Below are positions 24,928-40,765 of a DNA stretch of 64,000 bases, piece after piece. Every line of letters starts with the position of its first letter. The first letter of the stretch is position 1. Origin of the DNA: Bdellovibrionales bacterium (GTDB taxonomy: Bacteria > Bdellovibrionota > UBA1018 > CAIMNF01). The stretch lies in contig CANHQK010000008.1 in assembly GCA_947462765.1 (NCBI GenBank), forward strand, positions 1-64,000, read 5' to 3'. The translations under genes and the position numbers were made by a program. The notes under the pieces are model-generated. The model worked only from the letters and a program-made list of their open reading frames with translations, did no database searches and was not told where the DNA came from.

Positions 24928-25323
24928 TCAGCCTCCGCGCTTCTTGTGGACTGCTTCGAGCTTTTCGATCAACTGCTCTTTGCCGAATGGCTTGACTACG
25001 TAGTTGTCCACGCCAGCTTTGATCGCTTCGACGACCTGGTGCTGTTCGGCTTCGGCCGTGACCATGATGAACGGGGTGGTCTTGAAACGGCTGTCAGCGC
25101 GGAGCCTTTTTACAAGATCGAGTCCTGAACAGTTCGGCATATTCCAGTCGGAAATCACCAAACCGATCGGAGGAGTGGAGTTCTGGATCGCCTCCCAGGC
25201 CAGGATGCCATCAGCCGCTTCGATGATATTTTGAAAGCCGATCTCTTTCAGGACCTTACTGACCAGTTTCCTCATGGTCATCATGTCGTCGACCACGAGA
25301 ACTTTGATCTGTGTATTGAACAT
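24928..25323 (-). CDS. cheY: CheY-type single-domain response regulator
   Basis: MFNTQIKVLVVDDMMTMRKLVSKVLKEIGFQNIIEAADG...GLVISDWNMPNCSGLDLVKRLR...PFIMVTAEAEQ...GVDNYVVKPF. Confidence 0.9.
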   Translation of the reverse strand: MFNTQIKVLVVDDMMTMRKLVSKVLKEIGFQNIIEAADGILAWEAIQNSTPPIGLVISDWNMPNCSGLDLVKRLRADSRFKTTPFIMVTAEAEQHQVVEAIKAGVDNYVVKPFGKEQLIEKLEAVHKKRGG

Positions 25324-25458
25324 TTTCCTGTCTCCTCGCCGTAGATTGTACTTTGGAACGGGTCTCACTGTCTTTTTTTTTCATCGGCATCCTGAAGCGC
25401 TCAGGAGTGTCAAAAGAATGACCTCGCGAGTCCGCATGGGGTGAGGCACACTAGATCC

Positions 25459-27609: not shown

Positions 27610-29382
27610 ATGGACGATTTCGAGAAAGAACTTAAAGTCGGATTTCTGGAAGAAGCCAGTCAGCTGCTTGCGGATGCCGAACAGTGTTTTCTGGCGTTGG
27701 AGTCGAACCCGCAAGACGGGGCCATGCTCGATAAGATTTTTAGGCTTGCACACAACTTAAAGGGAAGCTCGAAGGCGGTCGGCTTTGAAGACATCGGAGT
27801 CTTCACCCATCGCTTCGAGAGTTTCTTGCTCAAGGTGAAAAACGGAGAGATCCCTGTCAGTTCTTCTGTGATCAGCCTTTTGCTCGTGTGCAATGATCAC
27901 ATCCGTTCCATGGTCGACATCCTGAAAGCCGATCTGGATGCGAGGATTGACAGTTCAGCTTTGATGGAGCAAATCGAGAGTGCCAGTCACGGCGCCCAGG
28001 CCGAAGAGGGCGCCGAAAGTGCTGATGAGGAACCCACCGGACTCCAAGCAGTCCATGATGTGCATGAAGAGGAAGTTTTCGAGGCTCCCACGCCCGAAGA
28101 AGTCGAGCTCATCCGTCTGGTCAATCATTCCTTCGATGTCGGAGTTGCCGAGGTGGCTCCGGTAAGGGAGTCCGCGCCCGTGGTCAAGACGGTCGCCGCC
28201 CCAGCCACCGCGCCAGACGAATCGATTCGAGTTTCGCTCGCAAGATTAGAGAAATTGATCAATTCCGTGGGCGAGCTGGTGATCCTGCAGACTGTTTTGC
28301 GGGAGCAGTCCATGACTTCGAACGCACACCTTCTCAGGAAGACCATCCACCAGATGGGTAAGGTCACGAAGGAAGTGCAAGACATTTCCATGAGCCTCCG
28401 GATGGTTCCACTGAAGCAGACTTTTCAAAAGATGCAACGGATTGTCCGGGACACCTCTGGAATGCTCGGGAAGAAGGTCGGTCTGGTCACCTCCGGTGAT
28501 GACACCGAGCTCGACAAGACGGTCCTCGAAAATATCAGTGACCCGTTGGTCCATTTGATCCGCAATGCTTGCGACCACGGGATCGAATCACCGGAATCGC
28601 GTCTCGCAAGCGGAAAGCCAGAGTCGGGAACCGTGAAACTCAATGCTTATCACCAGAGTGGAAAGCTGGTCATTGAAGTCAAGGACGACGGAGGCGGCAT
28701 TGATGGTGTGAAACTCACTGCCAAAGCCATAGAAAAAGGCATACTGAAGCCGGGAACCGTGCTGCCCGAGCAAGAGGCCATTCATTTGATCTTCCATCCC
28801 GGATTCTCCACTAAATCCCAAGTTACGGAAGTATCGGGTCGGGGAGTGGGAATGGACGTGGTGAAAACCAATATCGAAGCCCTTCAAGGCGAGGTTCAGG
28901 TCGAGACTGTTCTGGGAGAGGGAACGACTTTCAAGGTCGTGTTACCTCTGACCCTCGCGATCATCGATGGTATGGTGGTACAAAACGAGGGCTGTCGATT
29001 CGTAGTTCCCCTTTCTCACGTGCATGAGACCCTGAAGCCCTCCAGTGACGATGTCAAACACACGACCACCATGGGAGAGGTCCTCCTCCTGCGCGGGGAG
29101 AACTTGCCCTTGTACCGCCTGAACACTTTGCTCGGCCACAAGAAATCTGCTTTGAAGGCTGCAAATGAACAGATTGCAATGGTGATTCGTTATGCAGGAA
29201 ATCCCTTTGCGGTCCTGGTGGACGACATCCTGGGCCAACAACAGGTGGTGATCAAAGAAGTGGGCCAGGAGATTCAGAGCCTGAAGTGGATGAGCGGAAG
29301 CGCCATCTTGGGCGATGGCAAACCGGCGATCATCATCGAAATGAATGAACTTGTGAAACCATCCAGAAAAGGAGCTGCCTGA
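27610..29382 (+). CDS. cheA: Chemotaxis histidine kinase CheA
   Basis: HPt LAHNLKGSSKAVGF; ISDPLVHLIRNACDHGIESPESR; DDGGGIDG; HLIFHPGFSTKSQVTEVSGRGVGMDVVKTNIEALQG; C-terminal CheW-like domain. Confidence 0.96.
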   Translation: MDDFEKELKVGFLEEASQLLADAEQCFLALESNPQDGAMLDKIFRLAHNLKGSSKAVGFEDIGVFTHRFESFLLKVKNGEIPVSSSVISLLLVCNDHIRSMVDILKADLDARIDSSALMEQIESASHGAQAEEGAESADEEPTGLQAVHDVHEEEVFEAPTPEEVELIRLVNHSFDVGVAEVAPVRESAPVVKTVAAPATAPDESIRVSLARLEKLINSVGELVILQTVLREQSMTSNAHLLRKTIHQMGKVTKEVQDISMSLRMVPLKQTFQKMQRIVRDTSGMLGKKVGLVTSGDDTELDKTVLENISDPLVHLIRNACDHGIESPESRLASGKPESGTVKLNAYHQSGKLVIEVKDDGGGIDGVKLTAKAIEKGILKPGTVLPEQEAIHLIFHPGFSTKSQVTEVSGRGVGMDVVKTNIEALQGEVQVETVLGEGTTFKVVLPLTLAIIDGMVVQNEGCRFVVPLSHVHETLKPSSDDVKHTTTMGEVLLLRGENLPLYRLNTLLGHKKSALKAANEQIAMVIRYAGNPFAVLVDDILGQQQVVIKEVGQEIQSLKWMSGSAILGDGKPAIIIEMNELVKPSRKGAA

Positions 29383-29383
29383 T

Positions 29384-29881
29384 ATGAATCATGCTAAAAA
29401 TACCAATTCCAACCGTGAACGTTTTCTCTCGTTTTCGCTGGGGACGGAGGAGTATGCAGTGCCTTTGCTGGCGGTACGCGAGGTGATCGCACTTCCCGAG
29501 TACACACCGGTGCCCTACACCCCGTCCTACTTCCTGGGCATCATGAATCTTCGTGGCCAGGTGATTTCAATCATGGATCTCCGGCAGAAGCTCGGAATCA
29601 AGCCGGGGGTGGATACCGAAACCGCCGTGATCATCTGTGACTTGAACGGGGCATCGATCGGGGTGGTGGTGGATTCGGTGAATACCGTATTGAACCCGGA
29701 AACCGCGGATCTCTCGGAGAAGCCGGAGATCCAATCCAACCGGCCGACCGATTATATCACGGGCGTCTACCGAAAGGATAAAAAGCTGATTCTGTTTCTC
29801 GACCTCTCCCGGTCCCTGAGTCTTGAGGATCATGCGGCGGTGCGGAAGTCGGCGGAAGTCCGCGCTCCGAAGGCAGCTTGA
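29384..29881 (+). CDS. cheW: Chemotaxis coupling protein CheW
   Basis: RFLSFSLGTEEYAVPLLAVREVIALPEYTPVPYTPSYFLGIMNLRGQVISIMDLRQKLG. Confidence 0.95.
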   Translation: MNHAKNTNSNRERFLSFSLGTEEYAVPLLAVREVIALPEYTPVPYTPSYFLGIMNLRGQVISIMDLRQKLGIKPGVDTETAVIICDLNGASIGVVVDSVNTVLNPETADLSEKPEIQSNRPTDYITGVYRKDKKLILFLDLSRSLSLEDHAAVRKSAEVRAPKAA

Positions 29882-31725
29882 GGATGGGACAGGCAGTTCG
29901 GGCCGTAAGGTACACCGACATTTATGCCCACCTTTCCGAAGAGGTGATGAAGCTCACCGGAGTCCAGCTGGGTGAAAAGCAGCGTTCAATGGTGGAGGCC
30001 CGCTTGCACAAGCGGATTCACGAACTCGGATTCAGAAACATCAACGAGTATCAAATCCACTATGAAACTCACGAGAAAGAGGAGATCCAGGCGATTGTCG
30101 GGCTTCTGACCACGCACTACACTTACTTTTTCAGGGAGTTCGCCCATTTTGAATACCTGGCCGAGAAAGTCCTTCCCGAGTTGGTGCCCTTGGTTCGTCA
30201 ACGTCCGGACAAGACCCTGCATGTGTGGTCTGCCGCCGTCTCCCGTGGTCAGGAGGCTTATTCACTGGCGATGTTCTTGCATCACCACCTGAAGAGCTAC
30301 GGGACCGACATCCGGGTCCGGATCCTCGGAACCGATGTGGATGAGCAGTCCGTCAAGGTTGCTGCAAACGGAGTCTATCCGCGCAAGGAAATCAGTGAGG
30401 CACCCCTGGCCTATCTGGCCGATCATTGGGCAAGGGGAAAAGGTGATATTTCCGAGTTTGTAAAGGCCCGTGATTCCCTTAAGAAAATGGTCGAGTTCGA
30501 GACGGCTAATCTTCTCGATTTCCGGGACCGTCTTGGAAACCGGATGTTCGATGTCATTTTTTGCAGGAATGTGTTCATTTATTTCAGTCCTGAACAAATC
30601 CGGTCTTCCACCGATCGGATGTTGAAGCATCTCCACCCGCACGGTCATTTCATCATCGGGATGTCGGAGTCACTGTCCGGACTCGGGTTTGATTTGAAGT
30701 GCAAGGGACCCTCCGTATACAGGTTTCCCGAGAAGGCCCCGGCGCCGGTTGCGGAAGTCAAAAAGACTCTTCCCCCCCTGGCATCGGCTCCGAAAGTCAT
30801 CAAAGTCTTCTGTGTGGACGACTCCTCGAGTATCCATAGCCTCATGAAACAAATCCTGAAGCCTGATCAGGGTTTCGAGATTGTGGGTCAGGCCATGAAT
30901 GGAGTCGAAGCCGCCCAAAAGCTCAAGCAGTTGAAGGGAGTCGACGTGGTCACGCTCGATATCCATATGCCGGAGATGACCGGAGTGGAGTATCTCGAGA
31001 AACATTTCGGTCCCGGACACCCGCCTGTGGTGATGGTCAGTTCGGTTTCAAGGGATCAATCGGAACTGCCTCTCCGGACACTCAAGCTCGGGGCATCGGA
31101 TTATGTCGAAAAACCGGCACTGAATGCCCTTCAACAGCGGGGTGAGGAACTCCGCGCCAAGCTCAAGACCGCGGTTCTGGGTCGGAATCAGTCAGAAAGA
31201 TCCTTGCGTTTGGAGGAGGAGTTCAAGAAGAAGATCCTGATTTCATCTCCCGAGAGGAAGGTGCGGGTACTGGCTTCTGGTCTCGGCCATCTGAAGAAGA
31301 CCGCGCAGTTCCTGAAGGATCTCGATGGCGTTCAGCCCCCGGTTCATATTCTTTTTGAAGGGGTGGACGGGAACCTGCCCGAGGTGGCGAGGGAGCTCTC
31401 GTTCTTAAGCGGTAAGAAGGTCGTTTTCTCGGAAGACTTTTCATTGAAGGCCCGTCCGGGTGAGATCCGTGTTCTGGATTTCAAAAAGGGGATCTCCTTC
31501 CTTTCCAAGGTGCATGCAGGTGACCGGATGTCGGTCTCTGTCTTCGGTGAATGGGGAAGAAGCGCGGCGCTTGAGATCAAGGGACTTCGGGCTGCTCAGC
31601 TGTTGCTCGAGGATCTGGGGCATGGCAAAGGGGCGGAACATCTGCAACATGTTGCCAGTGATGTATTTCCGAGCACGAGCTTTCCATTTCTCGGAAGTGA
31701 GTTTTTCGCCAAGGGGGATGTTTGA
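29878..31725 (+). CDS. cheR: CheR methyltransferase fused to receiver domain and degenerate CheB-like C-terminal domain
   Basis: CheR: LTTHYTYFFREFAHFEYL, VWSAAVSRGQEAYSLAMFL, FDVIFCRNVFIYF; REC: VIKVFCVDDSSSIHSLMKQIL, DVVTLDIHMPEMTGVEYLEKHF, GASDYVEKP; C-terminal ~170 aa follow CheB topology without STGG or catalytic His. Confidence 0.88.
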   Translation: MRMGQAVRAVRYTDIYAHLSEEVMKLTGVQLGEKQRSMVEARLHKRIHELGFRNINEYQIHYETHEKEEIQAIVGLLTTHYTYFFREFAHFEYLAEKVLPELVPLVRQRPDKTLHVWSAAVSRGQEAYSLAMFLHHHLKSYGTDIRVRILGTDVDEQSVKVAANGVYPRKEISEAPLAYLADHWARGKGDISEFVKARDSLKKMVEFETANLLDFRDRLGNRMFDVIFCRNVFIYFSPEQIRSSTDRMLKHLHPHGHFIIGMSESLSGLGFDLKCKGPSVYRFPEKAPAPVAEVKKTLPPLASAPKVIKVFCVDDSSSIHSLMKQILKPDQGFEIVGQAMNGVEAAQKLKQLKGVDVVTLDIHMPEMTGVEYLEKHFGPGHPPVVMVSSVSRDQSELPLRTLKLGASDYVEKPALNALQQRGEELRAKLKTAVLGRNQSERSLRLEEEFKKKILISSPERKVRVLASGLGHLKKTAQFLKDLDGVQPPVHILFEGVDGNLPEVARELSFLSGKKVVFSEDFSLKARPGEIRVLDFKKGISFLSKVHAGDRMSVSVFGEWGRSAALEIKGLRAAQLLLEDLGHGKGAEHLQHVASDVFPSTSFPFLGSEFFAKGDV

Positions 31726-33110
31726 AGCTCAAGCACCTCGAACTGATTTCGGTCAAAAGCGGACATCCAGGGGGGCTCGCTCTCTTTGACGGCGTGCTTT
31801 GGGTTGCTCATGGACCGAAGGAGTCCGCCGCAATCTGGCTGAATTCCAGATCCGCAGTACCGGCGGATTTCGATAAAGCCTTCCGAACGTTGGAGGGCGC
31901 GCTCGGAGAGATTCTCTGTTGCAAGCTTGCAGGAGAGGAGCACACCCTCCGTTCGATCGAGACTTGGATGAAGAAACAGGAACGTCCACTTGCCAATGCT
32001 GCAGTTCGCAATGGGGCATTCGAGGTTTCTTTCAATCCGAGTGAAAATCGGGTCCGGATTTCAAGGAAGCTCAGGGTATTGGTGGTCGATGACAGCAAAA
32101 CCATCCGGAATCTGCTCACCAAAATTCTGAATTCCGACACATCCGTCGAGGTGGTGGGTACCGCTGATCGCCCGTCCGAAGCCTATCGTTTGATCGAGAG
32201 CCTGAAACCAGATGTGCTGACGCTCGATCTGCACATGCCGGAGATGAACGGCCTCGAATTTCTACGGAAGTTTCTTCCGACCCACCCGATCCCCACTGTC
32301 ATGGTTTCGGCCGTCAGCCTGGAGGAGGGGTCCGAGGTGCTCCAGTGCCTGGAAGCCGGAGCGGTGGACTACATTCAAAAACCCAGCGCCACAGAAATCT
32401 CTGAGATCTCGCCCCAGTTGATTGAGAAAGTCAAGACTGCGGCCGGCGTGAAGGTGAAGGTCTCGGCTCCTTCCGGACAATCCACCCGTACCCGGCGCCG
32501 CTCCGGGGTGGCCCTTTCGATGGAGCGGGATCGTCTGTTGGTGATCGGATCATCCACGGGTGGGACTGAGGCCCTGCGCAAGATTCTCATCGAGCTCCCC
32601 GAAGCCATTCCTCCGACTTTGATTGTTCAGCACATTCCTGCGATGTTTTCCAAGGCCTTCGCGGAGCGGATGAACGATTTGTGTCCTTTCCGGGTAAAAG
32701 AGGCTGAAGACGGCGAGGAGATCCGTCCAGATCATGTTTACATTGCACCGGGTGGACGGCAGATGAAGATCCGCAAGAGGGCGGATGGTAAGAAGTTCAT
32801 TGTGATCAACGACGCTCCGCCGATGAATCGCCACAAACCCTCCGTGGATTATCTTTTCCATTCGGTGGCCGAGACTGTCGGAGGTGAGTGTGTGGGTGTC
32901 ATCCTCACGGGCATGGGGAATGACGGTGCAGCGGGTTTGAAGCGGCTCAGGGATGCCGGGGCCAGGACCATCGCGCAAGACGAAAAATCCTGTGTGGTTT
33001 TCGGCATGCCGCGTGAGGCGATTTTGCTCGGTGCCGCCCAAGAGATTCTGGCGCTCCAGGACATCCCCGGATGTTTGGTGCGCTGGTTCAGTCAGAAAAA
33101 AGCTGCTTGA
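31722..33110 (+). CDS. cheB: CheB methylesterase with receiver domain and N-terminal degenerate CheD-like domain
   Basis: REC: LRVLVVDDSKTIRNLL, DVLTLDLHMPEMNGLEFL; CheB: LLVIGSSTGGTEALRKIL, LIVQHIPAMFSKAFAERMN, GVILTGMGNDGAAGLKRLRDAGA. The N-terminal ~115 aa resemble CheD by eye. TTG start overlapping cheR by 4 nt. Confidence 0.9.
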   Translation: MKLKHLELISVKSGHPGGLALFDGVLWVAHGPKESAAIWLNSRSAVPADFDKAFRTLEGALGEILCCKLAGEEHTLRSIETWMKKQERPLANAAVRNGAFEVSFNPSENRVRISRKLRVLVVDDSKTIRNLLTKILNSDTSVEVVGTADRPSEAYRLIESLKPDVLTLDLHMPEMNGLEFLRKFLPTHPIPTVMVSAVSLEEGSEVLQCLEAGAVDYIQKPSATEISEISPQLIEKVKTAAGVKVKVSAPSGQSTRTRRRSGVALSMERDRLLVIGSSTGGTEALRKILIELPEAIPPTLIVQHIPAMFSKAFAERMNDLCPFRVKEAEDGEEIRPDHVYIAPGGRQMKIRKRADGKKFIVINDAPPMNRHKPSVDYLFHSVAETVGGECVGVILTGMGNDGAAGLKRLRDAGARTIAQDEKSCVVFGMPREAILLGAAQEILALQDIPGCLVRWFSQKKAA

Positions 33111-38516: not shown

Positions 38517-39032
38517 GTGAGACTGTGGAGTTTGCTCGGGATGATCTGGGGAATGAGTCAACTGGCCTTTGCCGGCGTTCAGCCGGCCGGACTCAGGCAT
38601 CTTGCGTCTGGCGGCCCGGGTTGTTTCGAATGGATCAGGAGTCGGGCATCCGGGCCGGGAGAAGTGTCGCGTCTTCCGGAAGTCTGTCGGAACCTGCGCT
38701 CGGACTACCATCAGGCTCTTGAGGTCATTCATCGCGATCGGAGCGGACTCGTCGGGCAGGTTGGAAAAACGCTGAGAACCTCACGCTCGGACCGGAGTCC
38801 GTACGAAGCGATCCTGTTTTCGGTTCTCATGGGTGAGCGAGGTCTCCTGCCTTCATTACGGGAGCGCGAGAAGGTCGAAAAGAAAAAGAAGCTGAGGCTC
38901 CAGTATGCTTCTGTGGCTGTAGCGAGATTGGAAGGGAAAGCCTGTTCGGTCACCCAGTTTTCGATGGCCGAGTTCCAGGAGCTCTGTCGGGCAAGGGATT
39001 CCGTGTTGTCCGAAGCCGGGAGGAATCGATGA
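38517..39032 (+). CDS. Secreted protein of unknown function
   Basis: GTG-start ORF with signal peptide (M/V)RLWSLLGMIWGMSQLAFAG; overlaps the next ORF by 4 nt. Confidence 0.55.
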   Translation: MRLWSLLGMIWGMSQLAFAGVQPAGLRHLASGGPGCFEWIRSRASGPGEVSRLPEVCRNLRSDYHQALEVIHRDRSGLVGQVGKTLRTSRSDRSPYEAILFSVLMGERGLLPSLREREKVEKKKKLRLQYASVAVARLEGKACSVTQFSMAEFQELCRARDSVLSEAGRNR

Positions 39033-40765
39033 GGCCGATGGTTTTGTCTGCTCTCCTGTTTATTGCGGTGCTGCCGGATGCAGGTGCGGATCCTTGTGCC
39101 GATAAATCCGCCGAGCTGGAGAAAGCTGGTATCCGGGTTCTGTCCTGTTCCCAGGTGGATTTCGGGGTCAAGGCGATCTCGGGAGATTATCAAAAACTAC
39201 AGACCCAGCCGGTCGGTGTGGCACCTTCGAAAATCCGTGAATCAAATCCTGACGGGAGCCCCGGAGCCTATGTTCATGTCAACGAGGCTCCCGGAATCAA
39301 GAACTCCACTTATTTCAATCCCGTCGTGTCCAGGGATGTCGCACCGGTTGCCGAAGGCGCAAGTCTGATCCAGAAATACACCACGGCTGTGAATTTCCGT
39401 TATCCGGAGGATCAGGATTTGGTGGCCTGGATGTCCGATCCGGACGGGATGCTGAAAGACCTCGTGCCCAAACCTGATGCGAGTGCGATGTCGGGCCGGT
39501 GTCGGGTCTGGTCGGCCTGGAGTCTTGATCCCGAGATTCAGAAATCATTGAACAGCATGTCCCGGGGAATCCTGTGTAACGAAATGATTCCCTTTACCCG
39601 TGGGGAGCTGAAGGAGTTACTCACCGTTCTTTATCCTTCCCCTCCGTTCAGTCAGAGGAAATTTCTCAGACAGATCTACTCTCATCCCATCAGGTATCCT
39701 TCGGAGGTGGAGGATGCGAATCTGACTCTGGCAAAATTGGGTGAACTCGGAGGGGGCAGTGACTTCACTCCGGATCTGGTACTCAAGATGGCCTCAGAGG
39801 CCAAGAGCCTCGGTCAGAACATGATCATCGACATAGACCCCGGTCGGGAGATCTGGAATCAACCCGTCGAGTGGGTGGTCGATATCGCTTTCGAGGATCC
39901 ATCAACGGCTCCGACCGCCCAGCAGACCGCCACCGAGCTCGTTGGATCGGCTCCTGAGGGTGCTGCATTTCTTCAAAAACTACGGAATGTGGAGCTCGAG
40001 CTGACTTCGATCGCACAGATGGATGTACCGAAGCCCCTCTCGGGCTTATGTCCGCTCAGAACATCCTTGGGGCTGGCTTGCAGTCCTGTACAGCAGACCT
40101 TGAGTGCTCAAGCAGATGCCCTGATCGAGATCCAGCGGGTAGCAATGCAGAGAGGATGGGTGCAGTCGGGCCCCGCCAAGCGAGTCCGTCATAAGTTGTT
40201 CATTTCCTATGGAGTCGAGGGTCCATTCGGAAAGTCCGAAGACCTACCCGGAGCCGTTCGGGAACTCGAGTACCTCGAAGTCGGGTCAAAAAAGGTCTGG
40301 TCGCCGGCCGCGACTCCACTCAGCCAAGTCTGTGGCAAGGGTTTCTCGCGCGAAGACCGGAACAGCATCCTGACCCGGTTTGATGTGGATTCAGAATGTG
40401 AACGGTTCAAAAAGGGAGAGATCCCGGATCGAAAAATCATCACTGGCGCATTGCCCCCGAAAAAGTTCGAGACCTATGTCGCGAAGGCGAACTTTAAGGA
40501 CGAACCTGATGCAGAATTCAAAAAGAGAGCCTACGAGCGTCTTCTTGAAATGATGAAACAGTGCGAAGTGTTCGATGACGCCGCCGCTTTTCTGGACCAA
40601 TTAAGCCTGGCGATTGCCGATAATGCTCTGGATGACAACGAGATCGGAGCCTTGAGTGTCCGGTACCGTGAGGTCTCACGTTTCCTCGATCCTGGCTTTT
40701 TGCGTTCCGAACTGGACAAATCCCAGAACGGGATCAGGATCCGTAAAGCCCTGCTCGGGGAATGA
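39029..40765 (+). CDS. Secreted protein of unknown function
   Basis: Signal peptide MRPMVLSALLFIAVLPDAGA; long ORF, no family recognised. Confidence 0.65.
   Translation: MRPMVLSALLFIAVLPDAGADPCADKSAELEKAGIRVLSCSQVDFGVKAISGDYQKLQTQPVGVAPSKIRESNPDGSPGAYVHVNEAPGIKNSTYFNPVVSRDVAPVAEGASLIQKYTTAVNFRYPEDQDLVAWMSDPDGMLKDLVPKPDASAMSGRCRVWSAWSLDPEIQKSLNSMSRGILCNEMIPFTRGELKELLTVLYPSPPFSQRKFLRQIYSHPIRYPSEVEDANLTLAKLGELGGGSDFTPDLVLKMASEAKSLGQNMIIDIDPGREIWNQPVEWVVDIAFEDPSTAPTAQQTATELVGSAPEGAAFLQKLRNVELELTSIAQMDVPKPLSGLCPLRTSLGLACSPVQQTLSAQADALIEIQRVAMQRGWVQSGPAKRVRHKLFISYGVEGPFGKSEDLPGAVRELEYLEVGSKKVWSPAATPLSQVCGKGFSREDRNSILTRFDVDSECERFKKGEIPDRKIITGALPPKKFETYVAKANFKDEPDAEFKKRAYERLLEMMKQCEVFDDAAAFLDQLSLAIADNALDDNEIGALSVRYREVSRFLDPGFLRSELDKSQNGIRIRKALLGE

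Follow-up and report, generated by a model that had tools for sequence, protein, structure and literature searches.

The DNA analysed here, a window of 64,000 nucleotides from a Bdellovibrionales bacterium (assembly GCA_947462765.1, contig CANHQK010000008.1), contains a run of chemotaxis genes in which cheA and cheW precede, on the same strand, two open reading frames (ORFs) termed ORF1 and ORF2. The stop of ORF1 and the start of ORF2 overlap by 4 bp. ORF1 codes for a CheR methyltransferase domain, a receiver domain (REC) and a C-terminal segment called X, and ORF2 codes for an N-terminal segment called Y, a second receiver and a CheB methylesterase domain. These coordinates and the domain order CheR-REC-X and Y-REC-CheB had been read from the DNA in an earlier note and are borne out by the Pfam domains (Table 1), with no Pfam match for X or Y of the window proteins. 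It is well supported that X is a CheB catalytic domain by homology, as judged by sequence comparison and structural modeling, and that Y is a shortened homologue of the deamidase CheD, both having lost their catalytic residues. Translation of ORF1 probably starts at the ATG at 29884, which matches the orthologues, rather than at the TTG.

Table 1. Features of the ORF1/ORF2 locus and of its surroundings in the window.
Feature	Position	Strand	Remarks
ORF1, CheR-REC-pseudoCheB, 615 aa	29878..31725	+	frame from TTG at 29878
CheR methyltransferase domain of ORF1	29929..30723	+	Pfam E 5e-45; SAM (S-adenosylmethionine)-binding motifs, RGxG loop
Receiver 1 (ORF1), phosphoacceptor D361	30793..31152	+	Pfam E 2e-19; best NCBIfam match CheB-type, residues 307-441
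Segment X, pseudo-CheB catalytic domain of ORF1, residues 440-615, triad lost	31195..31722	+	PxTSFxY conserved near end
ORF2, pseudoCheD-REC-CheB, 462 aa	31722..33110	+	TTG start
Segment Y, pseudo-CheD of ORF2, residues 1-116	31722..32069	+	without Cys, His and IGxxN segment
Receiver 2 (ORF2), phosphoacceptor D169	32070..32417	+	Pfam E 9e-23
CheB methylesterase domain of ORF2, triad S278, H304, D401 intact	32526..33107	+	Pfam E 7e-66
CheA (Hpt, dimerisation, ATPase and CheW domains)	27610..29382	+	Pfam; same gene run, upstream of ORF1
CheW	29384..29881	+	Pfam E 6e-35
CheY-like single-receiver protein, nearby	24928..25368	-	Pfam E 3e-27

The structure of segment X was predicted with AlphaFold2 from 36 orthologues and, like that of segment Y, came out as a confident fold (predicted local distance difference test, pLDDT, of 89.6 and 93.5, respectively; predicted template modeling score, pTM, of 0.87 for X). 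In a Foldseek search of the PDB with X, eight matches had an E-value below 1e-3, all of them CheB (2e-7 to 1.5e-4) with template modeling scores of 0.65–0.73 by query length, and the next match followed at 1e-2. Since CheB is the sole fold below 1e-3, another Rossmann-like domain is ruled out. Profile-profile comparison gave an E-value of 2e-7 against active CheB domains and of 1.7e-5 against the CheB family of ORF2 itself; the score against the CheB profile was 50.7, the maximum of 100 column shuffles being 19. The CheB model of Pfam was matched weakly by 3 of the 36 X orthologues (best E 5e-5), and BLAST alignments of ORF2 extend from the receiver into X in several orthologues. A CheD-like nature of X is ruled out by the cross comparison (E 0.31). 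Searching the PDB sequences with the X and Y profiles returned nothing useful.

Compared to CheB (PF01339; 1chd, 1a2o, 3sft, 6ymz), X has the catalytic fold behind a CheB-type receiver; it differs in being joined to CheR and in lacking both the Ser-His-Asp triad and the GMGxDG segment, whereas ORF2 includes a complete CheB. In the window protein Gly replaces the nucleophile Ser, Glu replaces the His and no GMGxDG segment is present. Among the orthologues the His position is occupied by Glu in 27/36 and by His in 2/36, and the nucleophile position by Gly in 16/36 and Ser in 14/36. The alignments therefore agree with the earlier claim that X is devoid of the STGG, QH and GMGxDG segments, refined by the observation that about 40% of the orthologues retain the Ser, yet without the other triad residues. 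Here, the loss of the catalytic Asp was judged by the missing GMGxDG and the order of the segments, since the second half of the merged MAFFT alignment of X and CheB is unreliable.

Segment X has near-invariant residues peculiar to it and not inherited from CheB, namely R463, G557, E578, D579, P598, T600, S601 and F602, most of which lie at predicted strand ends. The polar ones among them, together with the invariant Ser at a helix start, would fit a re-purposed domain in which the CheB fold has acquired a new site, catalytic or ligand-binding, made up of E578, D579, T600 and S601. Such a site is, however, very improbable, as neither an invariant His nor another obvious general base is found, the motif also resembles a helix cap, and Foldseek shows no significant fold besides CheB.

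Segment Y aligns over nearly its full length with CheD (PF03975) and occupies the position that CheD has in CheD-REC-CheB proteins, but is missed by the Pfam model. The profile-profile comparison gave an E-value of 9e-6 with the smaller alignment (110 columns); enlarged to 62 Y and 32 CheD sequences, it gave 3e-6, with 121 columns aligned. In the latter comparison the score was 36 against a maximum of 15 in 100 shuffles; trimming the smaller Y alignment left an E-value of only 0.014, yet still a score above all 100 shuffles. A relationship to CheB is ruled out (cross comparison E 0.41). As proposed previously, Y looks like CheD without its catalytic Cys: neither the Cys nor the His is found in any of 33 orthologues (0/33 each), and the IGxxN segment is missing as well.

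The remaining domains keep their key residues. In CheR of ORF1 the residues of the SAM-binding motifs are conserved in the 36 orthologues, and the beta-subdomain keeps the RGxG loop, which we take to be the pentapeptide-binding region. The acidic pair, the phosphoacceptor and the Lys of receiver 1 (D314, D315, D361 and K412) are each present in 36/36 orthologues, and those of receiver 2 (D123, D124, D169 and K220) in 34/34, so that the phosphoacceptor Asp, stated before to be kept in both receivers, indeed is. The triad of CheB in ORF2 is likewise intact in 34/34. ORF1 and ORF2, as far as their residues tell, each also hold one enzyme with all key residues, CheR and CheB, respectively. The earlier description as a pseudo-methylesterase/pseudo-deamidase pair thus holds for the homology and the lost residues, but is incomplete, because each protein also carries this intact enzyme.

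The ratio of nonsynonymous to synonymous substitution rates (dN/dS) in close pairs with finite dS is about 0.03–0.06 for X and 0.07–0.18 for Y, figures that are rough because dS is near saturation. Purifying selection on X is about equal to that on CheR, and that on Y is weaker. These values bear on the idea that X and Y are passive remnants, kept only since their removal would destabilise the fusion proteins, with receiver 1 acting as a phosphate sink or being inert. The few conserved positions of the fast-evolving Y would agree with this, as would L166-L168, in which X is diverged or shrunken and the profile matches mainly its last stretch, ATDVxPxTSFxY. However, this domain end is retained precisely where the remainder shrinks, X persists across many families under a constraint like that of CheR and has near-invariant residues not derived from CheB, and the key residues of receiver 1 are invariant. 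Passive retention is therefore regarded as unlikely.

Of 291 phylum genomes compared with the X profile, 79 gave a match, which was strong in roughly 70; almost all matches lie in frames of about 600–690 aa. Bdellovibrio- and Bacteriovorax-like bacteria are the named relatives in a scan reaching close relatives only, and the phylum is accordingly taken to be Bdellovibrionota. Both segments are kept in dozens of genomes, in answer to the question of conservation raised by the earlier note, and an assembly artefact or frameshift is ruled out by intact frames in these genomes, including named Bacteriovorax records. ORF2 lies directly 3' of ORF1 in 61 distinct cases. In one lineage the two are fused into a single frame of 1179 aa (L041:5923-9459 and L176:5278-8817). 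ORF1 without an adjacent ORF2 was encountered in five cases; in one of them, L004, the contig stops partway through ORF2.

Related fusions with all catalytic residues are present in the same phylum. These are CheR-REC-CheB proteins with an intact triad (L082-L093) and CheD-REC-CheB proteins that retain the Cys and the His (L042, L099, L111, L112, L121); CheR plus an active CheD-REC-CheB is also found in the phylum. They share the domain order of ORF1 and ORF2 and are their nearest relatives in trees: L082 is placed beside ORF1 in the CheR and receiver trees and L083 in the CheR tree, and receiver 2 clusters with CheD-REC-CheB proteins in the receiver tree, each with moderate support. In contrast to ORF1, the 13 intact CheR-REC-CheB fusions all lack an ORF2-like neighbour. 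L081, which a weak score placed with these fusions, has a degenerate third domain and an ORF2-like neighbour. A 654-aa REC-CheB-REC protein (L082:315-2279) is encoded near one of the active CheR-REC-CheB fusions. The pairing pattern, the intact fusions and the trees are consistent with a reciprocal loss by two adjoining bifunctional proteins. This suggests that the ancestors were active fusions, CheR-REC-CheB in the case of ORF1 and CheD-REC-CheB in that of ORF2, and that each later lost one enzyme half.

A further arrangement, CheD-REC-pseudoCheB, was found mostly in group g73, which is probably Bdellovibrio (L104, L110, L114-L128). Here, the Cys and His of CheD are intact, and in the CheB part, that of L127 included, Ser is changed to Asn and His to Ser with the Asp kept; Pfam nevertheless labels L104 of this type as CheB at 110 bits despite the broken triad. 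Like ORF1, these proteins carry a receiver and a dead CheB on an intact adaptation enzyme; they differ in that this enzyme is CheD and in the changes of the triad. Their CheB is placed on a very long branch apart from ORF2 in the CheB tree and, since it branches elsewhere, the g73 pseudo-CheB probably arose in an independent event. If so, a receiver with a dead CheB came to be joined to an intact adaptation enzyme on two occasions. For the CheR-REC-pseudoCheB and pseudoCheD-REC-CheB architectures, no description was found in the open-licence literature. All parts come from known families, in what appears to be a new arrangement.

The own genome (a metagenome-assembled genome, MAG, of 2.3 Mb) encodes one CheR, one CheB, three methyl-accepting chemotaxis proteins (MCPs) and one FliM; a CheD elsewhere and a second CheR or CheB were not found in this 91% complete assembly. 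The CheY-like protein of the window may belong to the ORF1/ORF2 system. Downstream of the cluster, a 578-aa ORF (39029-40765) has no Pfam match.

In other genomes, 27 distinct MCPs have their gene immediately 5' of ORF1 (L061-L086, L166-L185 and others), and every one of them ends in an RFEDV/I-like tail, for example PSENDPRFEDV, with the consensus P-S-x-[ND]-D-[PS]-R-F-[EKQ]-[DE]-[VI] after a low-complexity linker. Among MCPs not beside an ORF1-type gene, the tail is present in 6 and absent from 8. One receptor of the own genome, L132 (G000:C26), encoded on another contig, carries it at its C-terminus (VPSADDPRFEDL). These tails resemble the NWETF-type pentapeptide tether in being a short conserved peptide behind a flexible linker with an aromatic second residue and an acidic middle (PMC7390727, PMC7698151). 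The published rule for such tethers is a C-terminal xZxxZ, in which Z is F, W or Y (PMC7698151, PMC7390727). It misses nearly all of the tails, which end in RFEDV/I/L, because their last residue is mostly V, I or L; their role as a tether is putative.

That a receptor with a conserved tail is linked to ORF1 points to a role for recruitment. X and Y could accordingly be pure receptor tethers, which have lost catalysis but still bind receptors and only enrich CheR and CheB locally at these, the receivers mattering for ORF2 only. Binding to receptor helices, a property of CheB as well as of CheD, also fits this idea. Nonetheless, recruitment is already provided for by the tail, the RGxG loop is retained in CheR, and the invariance of receiver 1 would be left unexplained, so that a purely tethering role seems rather unlikely.

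ORF1 and ORF2 are best explained as the adaptation module of a chemotaxis system, probably a flagellar one. Since the arrangement is conserved in about one quarter of the phylum genomes, the dead domains are probably regulatory or docking domains; for X and Y, the most likely role is that of such a module coupled to phosphorylation. CheR of ORF1 would methylate the receptors and CheB of ORF2 would demethylate them. With the two genes next to each other, ORF1 would no longer have needed its CheB half, and ORF2 could have done without its CheD half. CheA would phosphorylate both receivers. Receiver 2 would then release CheB, as in an ordinary CheB, and receiver 1 may still act on that face of the CheB fold which once held the active site; its phosphorylation would thereby alter the activity of CheR or its access to receptors. 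The pseudo-CheB and pseudo-CheD domains would serve as docking surfaces, to receptors as well as between the two proteins. Both enzymes would in this way work together in a single complex, which the RFEDV/I-like tail of the partner receptor would recruit, probably through the beta-subdomain of CheR. As a whole, this explanation, an adaptation pair shaped by reciprocal loss and acting as a phospho-coupled docking complex, is the one we favour, tentatively and at somewhat less than an even chance.

Several observations weigh against it. Foldseek found no significant match for Y in the PDB; its weak matches were NTAN1, CNF1 and YfiH, presumably of the same structural superfamily as CheD. Y also evolves 2–3 times faster than the neighbouring domains. 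In L062, L080, L169 and L172 an ORF1-type gene has no neighbouring ORF2, CheB genes being present elsewhere in these genomes, and the pair is therefore not strictly obligatory. The trees are moderately supported and contain some long branches, and the absences from the own genome are provisional because of its incompleteness.

A wider and more doubtful proposal is that a receiver together with a dead CheB makes up a portable regulatory module, which adaptation enzymes (CheR and CheD) have acquired on more than one occasion and by which CheA phosphorylation would directly control methylation or deamidation; in the window, this would amount to two-sided feedback by one CheR-CheB complex recruited by a new type of receptor tail.

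Two traps for annotation emerge: receptors of this kind escape the standard tail rule, and the triad-broken g73 proteins are called CheB by Pfam. The series within the phylum, from active fusion to dead domain, shrunken domain and full gene fusion, makes the birth of a pseudoenzyme open to study. In textbook chemotaxis, phosphorylation feeds back on demethylation through CheB. The CheR of ORF1, with its invariant receiver and the dead CheB that has been kept, suggests that in these bacteria methylation may be under the control of the kinase, too.

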